From the NCBI GenBank assembly GCA_034509925.1, contig CM067532.1:7533180-7597179 (forward strand): a stretch of DNA of 64,000 nucleotides, given 5' to 3'. Source of the DNA: Hirudinaria manillensis (taxonomy: Eukaryota > Annelida > Clitellata > Hirudinida > Hirudinidae). A program made the position numbers and the translations under genes. The first letter of the stretch is position 1. Each line of letters starts with the position of its first letter. Shown in pieces: positions 882 through 64,000 of the stretch. The notes beneath the pieces are model-generated. The model searched no databases. It saw only the letters and a program-made list of their open reading frames with translations, and was not told the DNA's origin.

Positions 882-7583
<6,702 letters not shown>

Positions 7584-34552: not shown

Positions 34553-34651
34553 TTAGAGAAAAATGTTCGTGACGTTTCGTTGACTTCTCAAGGATGTTCT
34601 GCTATTTTTGGCTGTGAAGTCTTTTGCAGGTGGAATAATGTTTAGTACATT

Positions 34652-34707
34652 TATTATTATTATTATTATTGTTATTGTTATTATTATTATTGTTATTAGT
34701 GTTATTA

Positions 34708-34796
<89 letters not shown>
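34652..34796. repeat. (TTA)n microsatellite at the 3' junction of the retrotransposon
   Basis: About 145 bp of TTA units, pure over its right two thirds, running directly into the 3' end of the element (minus-strand element, so the sense strand reads AAT units after its last bases). Confidence 0.95.
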
Positions 34797-37700
34797 TTTC
34801 AAAACTTTTATTCAGCCCGGATTACGTCCGCAAAACCATCACGCAAATCGGAGAACCTCATCGATGTTTTTAGAGTCCTCAGACGGGCCCGGGAAAACCC
34901 ATGGACTGTTAACAGTAGCCTAAATATAATATTATAAATTAGATAAAGTACAATCAAATAAATGTTCTTCTCGGCCTTCTTCTTTTCCTTGCTTTCCAAG
35001 CGTTTGCTCTGAATGTTCTCCATATTCTATGGGTTTCTATCAGAGTCTTAATTGATGTCCACATTAAGAACCGCTTAGATATGCCAAGCCTCTTCCACGA
35101 GGTCCAAGTTTCCATGGCGATTGCTCCTCTCCAATTGATTATGTAGGCTGTGGCAATCGCCTCCATTTTGCCCTTGCCCTGATTTGGGCTGTTTGCCTTC
35201 ATCCAGCGATGAATGTCCGTGGTGTTATATTTGTCTATCTTGCTTTGGTGGACTCTATCTAGGTCCACGTTATCGGACACCACGGCCACGTCACAAATTA
35301 TGTAACGTTCATCGCTCCAGGCACAAAGATCGGGGATTCTGGTCCCGCTGACGGTTGGAATACGAGGCTCTCTTGTTGTTGAGTACCCCATCTGTGTCAA
35401 GACCGTCTCAAGCATCTTTGCTATACAATCGTGCCTTGCATGGCGGGGCCCGTCGGTACTTGGACACTTTTGGATAATGTGGGCGAGAGATTCCATCTCC
35501 CCACATCTGGCTGCGCAGGCTGTGTTGAACAGGGGTGTTTTTCTGGAAGCCCGCAATCTGTTGAAAAGTGTTGCTGAGCGGACTTTGACACAGCTTATGT
35601 ATTGGGTGGATGACATTCTGTTGATGCCATCCACCAGCCATTCACTTGGGGCTATTGCTTCCGGGAATCTCATCAGCCCGTGTCCGTCGACCGTTTTATA
35701 AAGTTCCCTCGCGGTTGATAGTCCACGAGGAACGTTCGGCTCATCTTTTTCCTTTGGCCTCCCAAATCTTTTGACTTCGCTGGCGATCATTGTGTTTTCG
35801 CGCAATGCATCCATCAGGAAGTTGTCGTTGCTCTCTTTGGCCTGCTGTAGAACTTTTGTCATTCTACGTATTCTAATTTCCGGAATCCATCGACGCAGTT
35901 GAAGGATTCCCATTCCTCCCGTTCTGATCGGGGCATGAAAGAATGCATTTGGGGTGTCTCTTGGCAGCCGGAGCCATTTTCGAACAGACCTCCTTATTGC
36001 GACATCAGCAGAATTCAAGGACTTGAGGCTGATCGCTTCGAAGGTGAGGAAGTGAACGAGACTAGGGAGAAGATGAGTCCTTAGGACATACACTCTCTGG
36101 CATGGCACGAGCGGAGCCCGCGAAATCGAGTGAAGGCCTTTTTGAATTTTATCTGCAAGCGAAGCAAATTGCATTCGAGGTCCGATTCGAACTCCTAAAT
36201 ACTTATAGGTGTCAACTATGGAGAGTGCCCTGATATCCTTATCTTGCAGTGTCAGGTATGGCTCTGGGTTGACGATCCATTGTCTTTTACGAGTGATGAC
36301 CTCAGTTCTCATCGAGGCACACTTGGATGCGTTCATGATGAGTCCAACTTTGGCCATCGACACCTCCAGTTGTCGCAACATCACTTTCATTCCAACGTCT
36401 GTGCTGGACAGTAAAAGAAGGTCGTCTGCAAAGGCGATGTAGTTGCATTTTTCGGAGGATTTGCCTCCTCCCGTAACCCCAATTGATCTGTCAATGTCAC
36501 TGACAACCATGTCAATGACAGCGTTGAACAACATCGGGGACATGGGGTCGCCCTGTCTTACTCCCCTGCCGACCTGTATGGATCTGCTGAGCTCTTTTCC
36601 CATCCTGATGTGGACCTGACAATTACTGTACATTTCTGACAGATATCTTGTTAACAGGGGTGGTGCGCCGAATCGTGAGGCTGCCCTGATGATCGATTCG
36701 TGGGAAACGGAATCGAACGCCTTAGACACGTCTACAAATGTCATGTTGAGCTTTTTTCTGTCTTGTCTACTTTGGGCGACAAGAGCCTTTACAAGCCAGA
36801 TGTTGTCGGCCAAACCGTCGCCTGATTGGAACGCCTTCTGTCTCGATGATAGTGGCCAATATACGGACATGCGTTTATTCATCACTCGATGGAAGAGGCG
36901 ACTCATGAGCGGACTCACAGTGATTGGTCTGAATTCACTTGGATCGGCTGTTCCTCTCACCTTTGGAATAAAGCTGACGACGCCAACTTTGAAGGGAGAT
37001 GGTGGCAGGCCCGTCAATAACCAGAGGGACATGTGCACAGCAAAGTCGATTGGTTTGATGTTTTCCAAGTGTTTCCTTTTCACTCCATCCAGACCGGGAG
37101 CACTGTCTTTAAGACCTCGCAGAGCCATTTTTACTTCAGTGCAGCTGACGGGAGCCTCCAAATCATGACACATACCGCAAACTGAAACCACCGATCTATC
37201 GTCTGTAATTGACTTTTGAGAAAATATTGGTTCCCAAAACTGGAGCAGTTGTTCGTGTGGTATGGGTTTAACTTCCTCGTTATATTCTTCATTCAAAACC
37301 GAACGAGCTCCTGAAGATCTATTCTTCCTGAATAACCCTTGGACCTTTGCTCGTTTCATCTTTCTGTCTTCCCTTCTTATCTCCTTCTTGGATGGTCGGA
37401 TCTTCGTTGTCCGAAATGGTCTGGTCAGATTTCCCGCTTGACTTTGGTCAGATGCAGCATAGGAAGTAGTCTCGACCTTCGGAGGCCGCTTTTCATATCT
37501 GTCAGCTCCCTTCTTTCCACTGTGCACTTTCAAACCCTCCATCCATTGTATGTATTCCTTGTCTATCAAACGGCGCTTTGAGTCCATGTCATCAACTTGA
37601 TTTCTCAACAGTTCGGAAAGTTCCTCGCATGGCAGACTTATGTATTTGTAATTTGCGAGTATAAATTGCTGCAGTTGAATGAAGCTATTCACTTCCGCTT

Positions 37701-38735
37701 CGACTGGAGATGCCGTGAGTGTGGGAATCGCAGTACATTTCGTAGGCTTGCCAGAGCAAGTTGTCTTTTCAATGATGTAGTTATTTAGATACTTGCGATA
37801 TCCTGGCTTGTTCCTAACTTTCCTAATGGTTTCAACTGGGACGGTTGGCAAGTATCGGTGAAGGGCAAGGTTGACCTGCTTTTTCTCAAGTGAATTCAGC
37901 CTCCATTCGGCGCTGGCAATCTCGTTCCATAGGCTGTCCACCCCTGAGAGAGCAGAAGTAATTTCACGGTTGGATGAACGTTCAACTTGACTCTCTGATC
38001 CACCAGATTCTATTTTAGTCTGGTATTTCTCCAAGATGATCCTATATTTGGGCTGCCTTCTGTGAGACTTAATGGCATTCAGTGACCTGTGTGGGAAACC
38101 TTTCTGTGCCTCTATGTTGATGTTTCTGATTCCTTTGCTTTTCAGTTCCAATTCAAACTTGGCTAACAGTGTGGATTCTTCCTCAGTCCAAACACACTTT
38201 GAATAACTTTTGCCAGCTCTTTCTTTGTGGTATTCCTCTGGGTGAGCATGGTTCTGATGGATTCTAAGACCTCGTACTGTTTTGAAGACAGCTTCACAAA
38301 AACAACAGGTTTCTTGCTTTTCCTCATTGCTTGTGTCTTTCACAACTGAATTTGTAACTGGAGGCACAGCAACGCTTTCGCCGGAGGAGTTCTTTTCAAA
38401 TATGGCTCGAGAACGAAGAGTTCTAACTAGGTTGTCGGAATTGGACATTCCGAAACGGTGAAAGCTACAAGTTTTCAAGAAGACTGCGAGTCCGTAAACG
38501 AAAGTCAACAGACACGACGATACGGAAGGATTTTCGTTCGCAAGTCTTCAATTTTCCCCTTTTCTTTTACAGAAACAGTAAAATGATTTCACCTTCAGAC
38601 AAAACGGAAGGTAGGGGACACGAATAAGCTAAATTCGGAGAAATTCGATAATTTCCGAGCGAAATTAACATGTATTTAACACGAAAACACGCAAGAAAAA
38701 CAAATCGACCGCTCCTTAGCTTACTCGCTCGAAAA
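34797..38735 (-). mobile_element. Non-LTR retrotransposon, RLE type (R2/R4 group, Dong-like target habit), near full length
   Basis: A 3.94 kb element bounded on both sides by TTA/AAT microsatellite: 34652-34796 at its 3' end and 38736-38793 at its 5' end. It has about 230 bp of 5' leader, one long ORF, and about 155 bp of 3' sequence ending in AATAAAAGTTTTGAAAA before the repeat. Single ORF with zinc finger, reverse transcriptase and restriction-like endonuclease is the plan of early-branching non-LTR clades (R2, R4, NeSL, Hero). Insertion inside TAA repeats is the known habit of Dong elements in the R4 clade, so that assignment is favoured, not proven. No target-site duplication can be recognised because the flanks are repetitive. 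Confidence 0.85.
34954..38508 (-). CDS. Retrotransposon polyprotein: zinc finger, reverse transcriptase, restriction-like endonuclease
   Basis: Uninterrupted 1,184 aa ORF; a second ATG at residue 21 is an alternative start. Rough positions: C2H2 finger near 68-86 (CCFCEAVF...HQNHAH); a Trp-containing Myb-like region just after it (CVWTEEESTLLAKFELEL); reverse transcriptase motifs A near 590 (FVDVSKAFDSVSH), B near 650 (GVRQGDPMSPMLFN) and C near 692 (FADDLLLL); CCHC knuckle near 998 (C-x3-C-x7-H-x4-C); endonuclease PD-D motif near 1059-1075 (IPDLCAW, then ICDVAVV). All catalytic Asp residues of the polymerase and nuclease are present and there is no frame break, so this copy may be recent and possibly competent (inference). 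It makes DNA by target-primed reverse transcription in the nucleus. Confidence 0.93.
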   Translation of the reverse strand: MTFVYGLAVFLKTCSFHRFGMSNSDNLVRTLRSRAIFEKNSSGESVAVPPVTNSVVKDTSNEEKQETCCFCEAVFKTVRGLRIHQNHAHPEEYHKERAGKSYSKCVWTEEESTLLAKFELELKSKGIRNINIEAQKGFPHRSLNAIKSHRRQPKYRIILEKYQTKIESGGSESQVERSSNREITSALSGVDSLWNEIASAEWRLNSLEKKQVNLALHRYLPTVPVETIRKVRNKPGYRKYLNNYIIEKTTCSGKPTKCTAIPTLTASPVEAEVNSFIQLQQFILANYKYISLPCEELSELLRNQVDDMDSKRRLIDKEYIQWMEGLKVHSGKKGADRYEKRPPKVETTSYAASDQSQAGNLTRPFRTTKIRPSKKEIRREDRKMKRAKVQGLFRKNRSSGARSVLNEEYNEEVKPIPHEQLLQFWEPIFSQKSITDDRSVVSVCGMCHDLEAPVSCTEVKMALRGLKDSAPGLDGVKRKHLENIKPIDFAVHMSLWLLTGLPPSPFKVGVVSFIPKVRGTADPSEFRPITVSPLMSRLFHRVMNKRMSVYWPLSSRQKAFQSGDGLADNIWLVKALVAQSRQDRKKLNMTFVDVSKAFDSVSHESIIRAASRFGAPPLLTRYLSEMYSNCQVHIRMGKELSRSIQVGRGVRQGDPMSPMLFNAVIDMVVSDIDRSIGVTGGGKSSEKCNYIAFADDLLLLSSTDVGMKVMLRQLEVSMAKVGLIMNASKCASMRTEVITRKRQWIVNPEPYLTLQDKDIRALSIVDTYKYLGVRIGPRMQFASLADKIQKGLHSISRAPLVPCQRVYVLRTHLLPSLVHFLTFEAISLKSLNSADVAIRRSVRKWLRLPRDTPNAFFHAPIRTGGMGILQLRRWIPEIRIRRMTKVLQQAKESNDNFLMDALRENTMIASEVKRFGRPKEKDEPNVPRGLSTARELYKTVDGHGLMRFPEAIAPSEWLVDGINRMSSTQYISCVKVRSATLFNRLRASRKTPLFNTACAARCGEMESLAHIIQKCPSTDGPRHARHDCIAKMLETVLTQMGYSTTREPRIPTVSGTRIPDLCAWSDERYIICDVAVVSDNVDLDRVHQSKIDKYNTTDIHRWMKANSPNQGKGKMEAIATAYIINWRGAIAMETWTSWKRLGISKRFLMWTSIKTLIETHRIWRTFRANAWKARKRRRPRRTFI

Positions 38736-38793
38736 TTATTATTATTATTATTATTATTGCTATTATTATTATTGTCATTATCATCATCACCAT
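38736..38793. repeat. TTA-rich microsatellite at the 5' junction of the retrotransposon
   Basis: TTA units interrupted by GCT and GTC, continuing into ATC units. It matches the repeat at the other end of the element, so the element appears to have split one microsatellite. Confidence 0.9.

Positions 38794-61171: not shown

Positions 61172-61176
<5 letters not shown>

Positions 61177-61225
<49 letters not shown>
61177..61225. repeat. (AAT)n microsatellite at the 5' junction of the second retrotransposon copy
   Basis: About 16 AAT units ending exactly where sequence related to the retrotransposon begins. Confidence 0.9.
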
Positions 61226-61227
<2 letters not shown>

Positions 61228-63690
61228 CGGCTCTTTCTAGCGAAGAACTGTCCTTGCTGCCCGCAATTCTGGACAGTCAATAAAAGAACTGAGAACCATT
61301 GAAAGACAGAGACAAAGGAAAGTAATTCAAGATTTGTTCAGGAAAAATCCAGCAGCAGGGGCACGGGCAGTGTTGGCAGAGGAATTCAAAGAAAAGTCAA
61401 AGGCAACTCCAGGAAAAGAACTGATCGATTATTGGGAGCAGGTCTTCTCAAAAAAGTCAGTTGAAGACGATAGATCAGTGACAGTTGTTGGCGGAACTCT
61501 GTATGATTTAGAATTGCCAGTCACCAGCGATGAGGTGAATTCTGCTATTGGAGGTCTCCGAGATGCTGCGCCAGGACACGACAAATTAAAGAAAGAGCAC
61601 ATACAAGGGATCAAGAACATTGACTTTGCAGTTCACATGTCACTGTGGCTGTTAACTGGTTTGCCCCCGTCTTCATTCAAAATTGGGATCGTCACATGCA
61701 TTCCAAAAATAAGTGGAGCCACCAACCCAAGCGAGTTCAGACCCATCACAGTGAGTCCAATCATTGGTCGACTGTTTCATAGGATCCTGAACAGACGGAT
61801 GATCTCCTTCTTGCCGTTGTCTCCGCGCCAAAAAGCGTTTCGTCAAGGAGATGGTCTGGCCGATAATATATGGTTGGTGAAGTCACTCATCAAGAAAAAG
61901 AAGCAGGAACTGAAAAAGTTAAATTTGACTTTCGTAGACGTATCCAAAGCGTTTGATTCAGTTTCTCATCAATCAATCATGAGAGCTGCTTCTCGACTCG
62001 GGGCGCCTCCATTGTTTATCAATTACTTGACAGAACTGTACAGAAATAGTTGGGTTCAAATCAAGACTGCAGACGGAATTAGTAATCGCATTCAAGTGGG
62101 CAGAGGCGTCAAGCAAGGAGATCCAATGTCTCCTATGCTTTTCAATGCCGTTATTGACATGGTCCTTAGCGAAGTGGACAAGTCAATCGGCGTAACAGGA
62201 GACGCTGACTCCAAAATAAAATGCAACTACGTTGCCTTTGCTGACGACCTCTTGCTGATGTCTACAACAGACGTTGGAATGCAGATGATGCTTCAACAAC
62301 TTGAAGGAGGAATGTCTAAGGTGGGATTAGCGATGAATCCAATCAAGTGCGCATCTCTTCGCACCGAGATAAACATCGCAAAAAGATCGTGGATTGTTAA
62401 TCCGGAACCATATCTTGAAGTTCAACACACGAAAATCACTGCACTAAATATCATTGAAACCTACAAATATCTTGGTATTGAGATTGGGGCACGATTAAAA
62501 TATGCATCAATAGCAGAAAAAATTCAAAAAGACCTACACTCCATTTCGCGCGCCCCTTTGGAACCACATCAGCGACTCTACATTCTCAGAACTCATCTCA
62601 TGCCTGGCCTTGTACACCATCTCAGCTTCGAAAAAATAAGCCTCAAGTCTTTGAACGCCGCCGACGTCACCATTAGACGAACAGTTCGACATTGGTTGAA
62701 ATTACCGAAGGACGTCCCCAATGCATTCCTGTATGCCCCAGTCAATATAAGAATTCGTCGCATGTCACAGGTCAAGAAGCCAAGGCGAATAGAGACCAGT
62801 TCATGCTCGAATGGCTAATCGGAATTAGCAGAATGACGTCAGATCAATGGATCAACTGCGTGAAGGTTAGAGCCGCGGTCCTACACAACAGATTGCGGGA
62901 ATCGAGGTACAAGATGTATTTGAGCACTCTCTGCACTGCTGGATGCCGGACTGAGGAGTCGCTGGGCCATATCATACAGCGGTGCCATGTTACCGATGGT
63001 CCTAGACATGTTAGACACAACTCCATTTTGGCCATGTTAGGAAGCAAACTTGAGAAGATGGGGTTTACTACCAGCATCGAACCCAGAATCCCGACGATAG
63101 AAGGAACAAAAATTCCTGATTTGTGCGCATGGAAAGGCTCCACATACGTCGTGTGTGACGTGGCAGTGGCATCGGATATTGCCGACTTGAATAAAATACA
63201 TGCCTCAAAAGTCGCAAAGTATGACCTTCCGGGAATCCACCAATGGATGAAGGAAAATAATCCGATGCCAGAACAACGGAGTCAGAAAGGTACCATCACC
63301 GCCCTGGTCTTGAACTGGAGAGGAGCAATAGCAGAAGAGTCTTGGAGGGTTTGGAGAAGATTTGGGGTCTCGAGGAGGTTCCTCATGTGGACCTCCATCA
63401 AAACGTTGCAGGAGACCCATAAGATTTGGCGAACTTATAAAAATAACGCCTGGAGAAGAAGAAAAAAGAAGTTGAATTGAATGACATTTGTGAATGTACA
63501 ATGACTCGTAAGATCGACTTGAAAGTTCCTTTTTTTGAATGGTCTGACGGGATTTCCCAGACCCATTGGCGGACCTAAAATTATTGAATCGGATTATGAA
63601 TTGTATGAATTGATTGCTTTTTGTGAGTTTTTGGCTGGGCTAATAAAAGGAAAAAAAAAAAAGAAAAAAAAAAAAAAAAAAAAAAAAAAT
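61226..63690 (+). mobile_element. 5'-truncated, internally deleted copy of a related RLE-type retrotransposon
   Basis: Begins in the linker before the reverse transcriptase, lacking the zinc finger and Myb-like part, and ends at CTAATAAAAGG followed by a 40 bp A-rich tail with one G. The protein is clearly related to the element at 34797-38735 but diverged along its whole length, so it belongs to a different subfamily or is much older. The 5' side abuts an AAT microsatellite; the 3' side continues AATAATGATAG. Confidence 0.88.
61334..63480 (+). pseudogene. Degenerate reverse transcriptase / endonuclease ORF
   Basis: Two overlapping frames. The first (61334-62818) carries motifs FVDVSKAFDSVSH, GVKQGDPMSPMLFN and FADDLLLM. 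The second (from about 62756 to 63480) carries the CCHC knuckle CTAGCRTEESLGHIIQRC and nuclease motif IPDLCAW with VCDVAVA. Compared with the intact copy, about 17 residues are missing near 62746 and about 60 near 62808, with a frame change between them. The polymerase core is intact but the linker to the endonuclease is destroyed, so the copy is defective. Confidence 0.88.
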
Positions 63691-64000
63691 AATGATAGAA
63701 GTGATATTTCTCATCTAGAAATGATAATGCATGCTTATATTATAATATAATTTTTGGACATATAGTTCACACTGAATTTCTAGGAACTATTTCATAAACA
63801 AAAACATAGAATAGTGTAAATCGAGAATCTGAAAAGCTCCATCTCTAAACTCCAGAAACAGAATCGTTTCCATGGAAACACGTGGTGGCACGTGTTCCGA
63901 GTCGTCGGGTGCAAAAGGAAAGATGATGAAGAAGAAGAAGAAGATGTGACAAGCAGCTGTTTTGATTCCTGAACTGGATTCGTTGGCAGGGAACATTGGT
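63691..64000. other. Right edge of window, no feature seen
   Basis: A+T-rich flank with an AAG run near 63928-63944. No exon supported on either strand. Confidence 0.5.

Follow-up and report, generated by a model that had tools for sequence, protein, structure and literature searches.

A probable (TAA)n-targeting, R2-like retrotransposon lineage in Hirudinaria manillensis

INTRODUCTION

The non-long-terminal-repeat (non-LTR) retrotransposons with a restriction-like endonuclease (RLE) that come closest to the locus described here are R2, which inserts in the 28S rRNA genes, and Dong of the R4 clade, for which (TAA)n is given as the insertion site in the majority of insects, molluscs and cnidarians (PMC7998251). 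Members of the R2 superclade that lie elsewhere than at the canonical site are reported either to be no longer specific or to have taken other rRNA sites (PMC5035012, PMC7650587), and 5' ribozymes of the hepatitis delta virus (HDV)-like type have been described for R2, R4 and Dong (PMC3774820). N-termini with fingers and Myb domains in variable number are attributed to all early-branching long interspersed nuclear elements (LINEs) (PMC5678591). We found no paper on a TAA-specific R2-type element in the literature searched, Repbase and subscription papers being outside its scope. Here we describe a candidate for such an element, element 1, in a 64,000-nt stretch of Hirudinaria manillensis DNA (assembly GCA_034509925.1, contig CM067532.1, positions 7,533,180 to 7,597,179, forward strand), called the window below.

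RESULTS

Element 1 and the census of its flanks

Element 1 is a full-length RLE-type non-LTR retrotransposon between TAA arrays, as the first-pass annotation of an RLE retrotransposon inside a TAA microsatellite had it. It starts with TTCGAGCGAG at 38733 and ends in ...AATAAAAGTTTTG at 34800, and its body and surroundings are laid out as follows.

34800..38733, minus strand: element 1 (family 1), full-length body of 3,934 bp; each end recurs in the majority of those family-1 copies where it is visible
34795..34799, minus strand: short A tail (A5) ahead of the TAA array, read from the sequence; the majority of the other copies have AAAAA or AA at this junction
34651..34794, minus strand: downstream (TAA)n array, putative target, on the element sense strand, read from the sequence
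38735..38781, minus strand: upstream TAA-rich array, putative target, read from the sequence

We tabulated the flanks of copies from four families in the host genome. A flank was scored as TAA when, on the element sense strand, at least 13 of the 15 positions in a stretch near the junction agreed with a TAA phase; the stretch had to lie within 30 nt for the background and the family-1 3' side, 32 nt for families 2 and 3, and 40 nt for the family-1 5' side; the 3' side was measured beyond the A tail. For families 2 and 3 the rule for the tail end was revised after a first tally (14/39 and 14/20) with the TAA threshold kept the same. Loci with N at the junction (L093; L121, L125; L002, L038) were excluded from the counts. 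The stranded background was 215 of 22,451 30-mers (0.96%) in the window outside both of its elements, and 309 of 10,528 (2.9%) in the outermost 500 bp of loci L001-L030, stretches which themselves hold some copies.

On the 3' side, TAA was found at 27 of the 30 sampled family-1 copies (10 of the 40 family-1 places were without a locus and uncounted; the one of these that was read, L100, had TAA), at 35 of 38 readable family-2 places (39 places, one unreadable; element 2 of the window stands outside the 39, and including it gives 35/39) and at 17 of 18 readable family-3 places (20 places, two unreadable; L114, among the 17, has its element end out of view). The sole 3' end read in family 4 was likewise followed by TAA. 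On the 5' side of family 1, there were 38 junctions of differing sequence (two each from L020 and L041), of which two were unreadable; TAA was present at 32 of the remaining 36, comprising 18/20 full-length and 14/16 truncated copies. In families 2 and 3, four full-length 5' ends were read (L028-L030; L131), and all of them had TAA upstream. The median array length was 70 nt upstream (n = 19) and 42.5 nt downstream (n = 34). In four copies chosen by eye from 18 laid out, interrupted direct repeats of 42, 24, 46 and 16 bp (L004, L008, L033 and L021, respectively) were seen on both sides.

Because TAA recurs at most sampled copies against a background of 0.96%-2.9%, these flanks are beyond chance, and because in truncated copies TAA immediately precedes a position inside the element, which a tail would not explain, the repeat is regarded as target and not as tail. 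The flanks fit a (TAA)n target like that of Dong and not the 28S rRNA gene site used by R2, being TAA in most sampled copies. The first-pass suggestion of a TAA-targeting lineage, which random flanks at other copies would have refuted, was thereby supported: the flanks are not random, and in most sampled copies TAA lies on both sides in one orientation.

Families, copies and recent activity

The genome searched comprised 148.4 Mb in 23 contigs, the window being on contig 7, and all copy counts are lower bounds. With the element-1 protein, at least 40 matches were obtained, of which 28 belonged to family 1, 11 had 57% identity and one had 54%. The best 13 covered the whole protein (one stopping at residue 1162) at 95-100% identity, and 11 of these 13 had no inner stop. 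Three of the 57% loci were read (L028-L030); they match element 2 and belong to family 2. The 3' ends of elements 1 and 2 were each found at at least 40 places, at 95-100% identity (best 40 of 91 candidates) and 99-100% identity (best 40 of 128 candidates), respectively, and a zebra-finch R2 query of the genome yielded families 3 and 4. Each of the 11 matches at 57% contained one TGA; in-frame recoding of TGA was rejected because in L028-L030 this TGA is an ordinary stop codon at the end of an open frame, beyond which the alignment merely continues. No relatives were found in a collection of viral contigs. In the genome contigs collection, eukaryote-like elements were met at eight loci of bacterial assemblies; they were taken as contamination and served as reference R2s (L101-L104) and outgroups (L105-L108).

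Among family-1 copies, nine intact frames, all of one length, differed by 0.23-2.2%, with a mean ratio of nonsynonymous to synonymous proportions of difference (pN/pS) of 0.23 over 36 pairs, and between element 1 and family 2 pS was 0.85 and pN 0.28. Since near-identical intact frames coincide with low pN/pS, family 1 seemingly is a lineage that was coding until recently and has been recently active, in line with the live copy suggested in the first-pass annotation.

The second related element of the window, on the plus strand, had gone unmentioned there. Its amino acid identity to element 1 is 62% and 55% in two segments.

61227..63689, plus strand: element 2 (family 2), a copy with a truncated 5' end and an internal deletion; A-rich tail at 63651-63689
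61173..61226, plus strand: (AAT)18 array abutting the element-2 5' end
63690..63698, plus strand: short TAATGATAG downstream flank of element 2

Some arrangements of copies were observed elsewhere in the genome. On contig 11 (1362539-1448890), seven family-2 3' ends lie in one orientation with a spacing of about 12.6-18.8 kb, which suggests a tandem array of a large unit containing a family-2 element. On contig 12, at about 355-417 kb, family-3 and family-1 copies form a cluster in which all copies listed are on the plus strand and some family-3 copies are about 4.4 kb, or about one element length, apart. At L041 (C6:5515414 region), a family-1 copy has its 5' 769 nt inverted beside a truncated 3' part, reminiscent of 5' inversion (twin priming). 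Copies separated by TAA or little more were also found (L005/L024; L010 and L019, each followed by a family-2 5' end), consistent with the notion that copies offer the target anew.

Protein of element 1

The frame of 1,184 codons described in the first-pass annotation is unbroken, but this count starts at a TTG; from the first ATG the protein has 1,164 aa. FADD, CCHC and PD..D motifs are present, and the domain order is C2H2 finger, c-Myb, second Myb-like bundle, reverse transcriptase (RT), CCHC and PD..D nuclease.

34954..38448, minus strand: single open reading frame (ORF) of 1,164 aa and a stop codon, counted from ATG; the frame is already open from a TTG at 38508 (1,184 codons)
38242..38307, minus strand: N-terminal C2H2 zinc finger, from sequence and fold; Pfam matches all below cut-off
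38044..38193, minus strand: c-Myb domain 1
37786..37932, minus strand: putative second Myb-like helical bundle, from an alignment, kept in families 1-3; helices at residues 169-211
36184..36963, minus strand: RT domain (RVT_1, Pfam E = 1.6e-32); FADD at 36421-36432
35464..35517, minus strand: CCHC motif
35278..35340, minus strand: PD..D restriction-like endonuclease core

The RT and RLE are homologous to those of R2 (R2Bm match, E = 6e-113), with CCHC and PD..D present, and R2s were the sole RLE elements seen among the PDB matches. At the N-terminus, the C2H2 finger followed by c-Myb aligns with R2Bm by both sequence and fold. The second bundle gave no Pfam Myb match, and its sequence pattern and fold suggest that it may be Myb-like.

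Placement relative to R2

We built an RT tree from the four families, R2Bm, R2Tg and L101-L104 as reference R2s, with L105-L108 as outgroups. The four families grouped with L101-L104 (support 91/97; 95/98), which are tubeworm R2s including some that end in 28S. The element-1 RT was 41% identical to a tubeworm 28S R2, which itself was 37% identical to R2Bm and 29% to R2Tg. The protein thus appears nearest to R2 among the sequences available, rather than to the described Dong/R4 type. Placement in a clade with a different known target had been named in the first-pass annotation as a finding that would speak against a new TAA-targeting lineage. The R2 affinity is of that kind, yet the same copies show TAA flanks, so we read it as retargeting and not as refutation. 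Because the definition of R2 by its 28S site does not describe these copies, we file the lineage as R2-superclade-like with a new target, not as R2.

L101-L103 (QGON01000020.1, QGON01000005.1 and QGON01000019.1) are R2-type elements with 28S sequence alongside in a bacterial endosymbiont assembly of Escarpia laminata, and probably represent host contamination. In the H. manillensis assembly, one exact copy of a 33-base 28S R2-site sequence lies at C9:11242-11274, and a 41-base pattern across the 28S R2 site, four letters of which are provisional, had no match; the host rDNA may be collapsed, or the R2 site may be interrupted or different upstream.

5' end and a predicted ribozyme

The majority of full-length family-1 copies have an identical first base; a few bases that vary between copies separate it from the TAA upstream. 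From this end an HDV-like double pseudoknot can be drawn, with P1, P2, P4 and a J4/2 containing C-N-R-A; P1 may start at base 1 in a loose model, and the best-scoring version of a strict model starts at base 3.

38624..38733, minus strand: predicted HDV-like self-cleaving ribozyme at the element-1 5' end (strict model)
38610..38621, minus strand: GTGTCCCCTACC block, 12-14 nt as (TC)GTGTCCCCTACC, common to the 5' untranslated regions (UTRs) of families 1-3 (L029, L131/L109)

With the strict model, the family-1 score was reached by 0/500 shuffles and 0/3,000 window 150-mers, and the family-2 score by 0/500 shuffles. The P2 sequence differs between families 1 and 2 with the pairing kept. The loose, earlier model was clear in family 1 alone (0/300 shuffles); in family 3, 34/300 shuffles reached its score. 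Rfam at the gathering score gave no match in the whole window; four weak matches at the element-1 5' end (the best to CrcZ, E = 0.0025, on the TAA stretch), none of them HDV, were judged to be chance. The (TC)GTGTCCCCTACC block possibly binds a protein or belongs to the ribozyme region, and the RT regions of the families sharing it are just 56-66% identical.

Apart from the two elements, a 22/47-bp minisatellite was observed at 4526-4755 of the window within a 155-aa open frame (4339-4806).

DISCUSSION

We consider it likely that element 1 represents, as an intact copy, a recently active RLE lineage of several families within the R2 superclade whose integration target is (TAA)n. With less assurance, we favour the further scenario that a lineage nested in the 28S-specific R2 radiation, having a second Myb-like domain, switched to (TAA)n and then diversified into four or more families that coexist in one genome, converging with Dong.

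A number of observations weigh against these proposals, which are drawn throughout from DNA sequence. TAA was not scored on the 3' side of L046, L051 and L055 (family 1), L077, L078 and L094 (family 2) and L124 (family 3), nor on the 5' side of L009, L016 and the two L041 junctions, several of these exceptions being short or degenerate TAA or A/T-rich sites. The 3' flank of element 2 is just TAATGATAG and by eye falls short of the TAA score. Beyond the four copies with interrupted direct repeats, others lie in pure arrays and many have no plain direct repeat (e.g. L011, L013, L014 and L052). No R4/Dong or HERO sequence turned up in the searches made, and the RT tree, with the four families, R2s and outgroups as its rows, bears on R2 and not on R4, HERO or NeSL. 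A clade of the 28S R2s that leaves out the TAA families was not rejected by the approximately unbiased (AU) test (p = 0.119), the rooted node with R2Tg outside had 67/45 support, and long branches (R2Bm with the R2Tg pair) meet in the tree. For L101 and L102 it is the last bases that show the 28S flank, Rfam at the gathering score detecting 28S just in L103. The finger is a weaker mark against R4 because PMC5678591 gives fingers and Myb domains to all early LINEs. As for the ribozyme, the strict model was written after families 1 and 2 had been seen, with the family-2 start re-set; 6/3,000 window 150-mers reach its family-2 score, it fails in family 3, and the loose model found nothing in family 2.

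The arrays might have been made by the element itself, through an untemplated or templated TAA tail or through slippage after insertion. Some non-LTR elements have tails made of simple repeats, and some copies here lie in short or degenerate TAA sites (L009, L011, L049 and L051), but TAA also precedes the 5' end at 32/36 readable junctions, truncated copies included, the upstream arrays are as long as the downstream ones, and the four direct repeats are interrupted and carry partly non-TAA letters on both sides. We therefore judge this origin to be highly improbable. No more credible is random insertion in a TAA-rich genome followed by loss of the copies outside repeats: background TAA is not negligible (0.96-2.9%), but copies diverged by only 0.2-2.2% already show the one-orientation pattern, and selection would need to remove nearly all other insertions rapidly and in an orientation-dependent manner.

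The other alternatives concern the clade. Membership of HERO, some families of which are stated to be microsatellite-specific with a leech family cited (PMC4640811), would gain from the generality of finger/Myb N-termini among early LINEs (PMC5678591), but the affinity to 28S-ending R2s in both identity and tree, albeit indirect evidence from a tree of R2s and outgroups, makes it unlikely. A Dong-type element of the R4 clade, with the R2 resemblance reflecting general RLE similarity, would share the reported (TAA)n target of Dong; a tree of R2s and outgroups does not bear on it, and the same generality of N-termini speaks in its favour. We disfavour this filing and hold it to be quite unlikely because Dong/R4 is described without N-terminal zinc fingers (PMC7998251), whereas the finger and Myb here align with R2Bm; moreover, the RT identity to the tubeworm 28S R2 exceeds that between this R2 and R2Bm or R2Tg.

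If element 1 is a (TAA)n-targeting member of the R2 superclade, integration may proceed as follows. The zinc finger and Myb domains would recognise TAA repeat DNA, and the RLE would nick the strand opposite the one that reads TAA in the element sense, where target-primed reverse transcription would begin from the A-rich 3' end of the RNA. Second-strand cleavage some 16-46 bp downstream would then give rise to the duplications, and the 5' HDV-like ribozyme would trim read-through transcripts at or near the first base of the element. Because TAA arrays remain at both ends, copies could offer targets for further insertions.

A microsatellite-specific member with numerous young intact copies, if real, would mean that a short repeat can become the target of R2-type machinery while the domain plan stays as it is, which would be of use to R2-based gene insertion work. 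The four sister families provide a natural data set for the N-terminal residues that set the target, and one genome hosts several families with the same target.

Compared with known systems, element 1 shares with R2 (R2Bm, R2Tg and tubeworm L101/L102) the single ORF, the C2H2 finger, c-Myb, RT, CCHC and PD..D, the N-terminal fold, the closest RT among the sequences available and possibly a 5' HDV-like ribozyme. It differs from R2 in its (TAA)n target in place of the 28S site, its A-rich 3' tail and its second Myb-like bundle between Myb and RT, although L103 (28S upstream) also seems to have two, and its lineage has direct repeats of 16-46 bp at four insertions. The remaining comparisons are by description. 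Like Dong (R4), element 1 is an RLE-type element in TAA repeats, and an HDV-like ribozyme is reported at the 5' end of Dong (PMC3774820), but Dong/R4 is described without the N-terminal zinc finger that element 1 has (PMC7998251). HERO resembles it in the microsatellite specificity reported for some families (PMC4640811). BLAG1-6 of Blattella, R2-like and sister to R2, have an R2-like RT/RLE and N-terminal fingers but are without c-Myb and site-non-specific (PMC7650587), whereas element 1 has c-Myb and TAA flanks. R2NS-1_SMed, R2NS-1_CSi and R8/R9 likewise belong to the R2 superclade off the canonical 28S site (PMC5035012), with R2NS lacking target specificity and R8/R9 occupying other rRNA sites, whereas the site of element 1 is a microsatellite.

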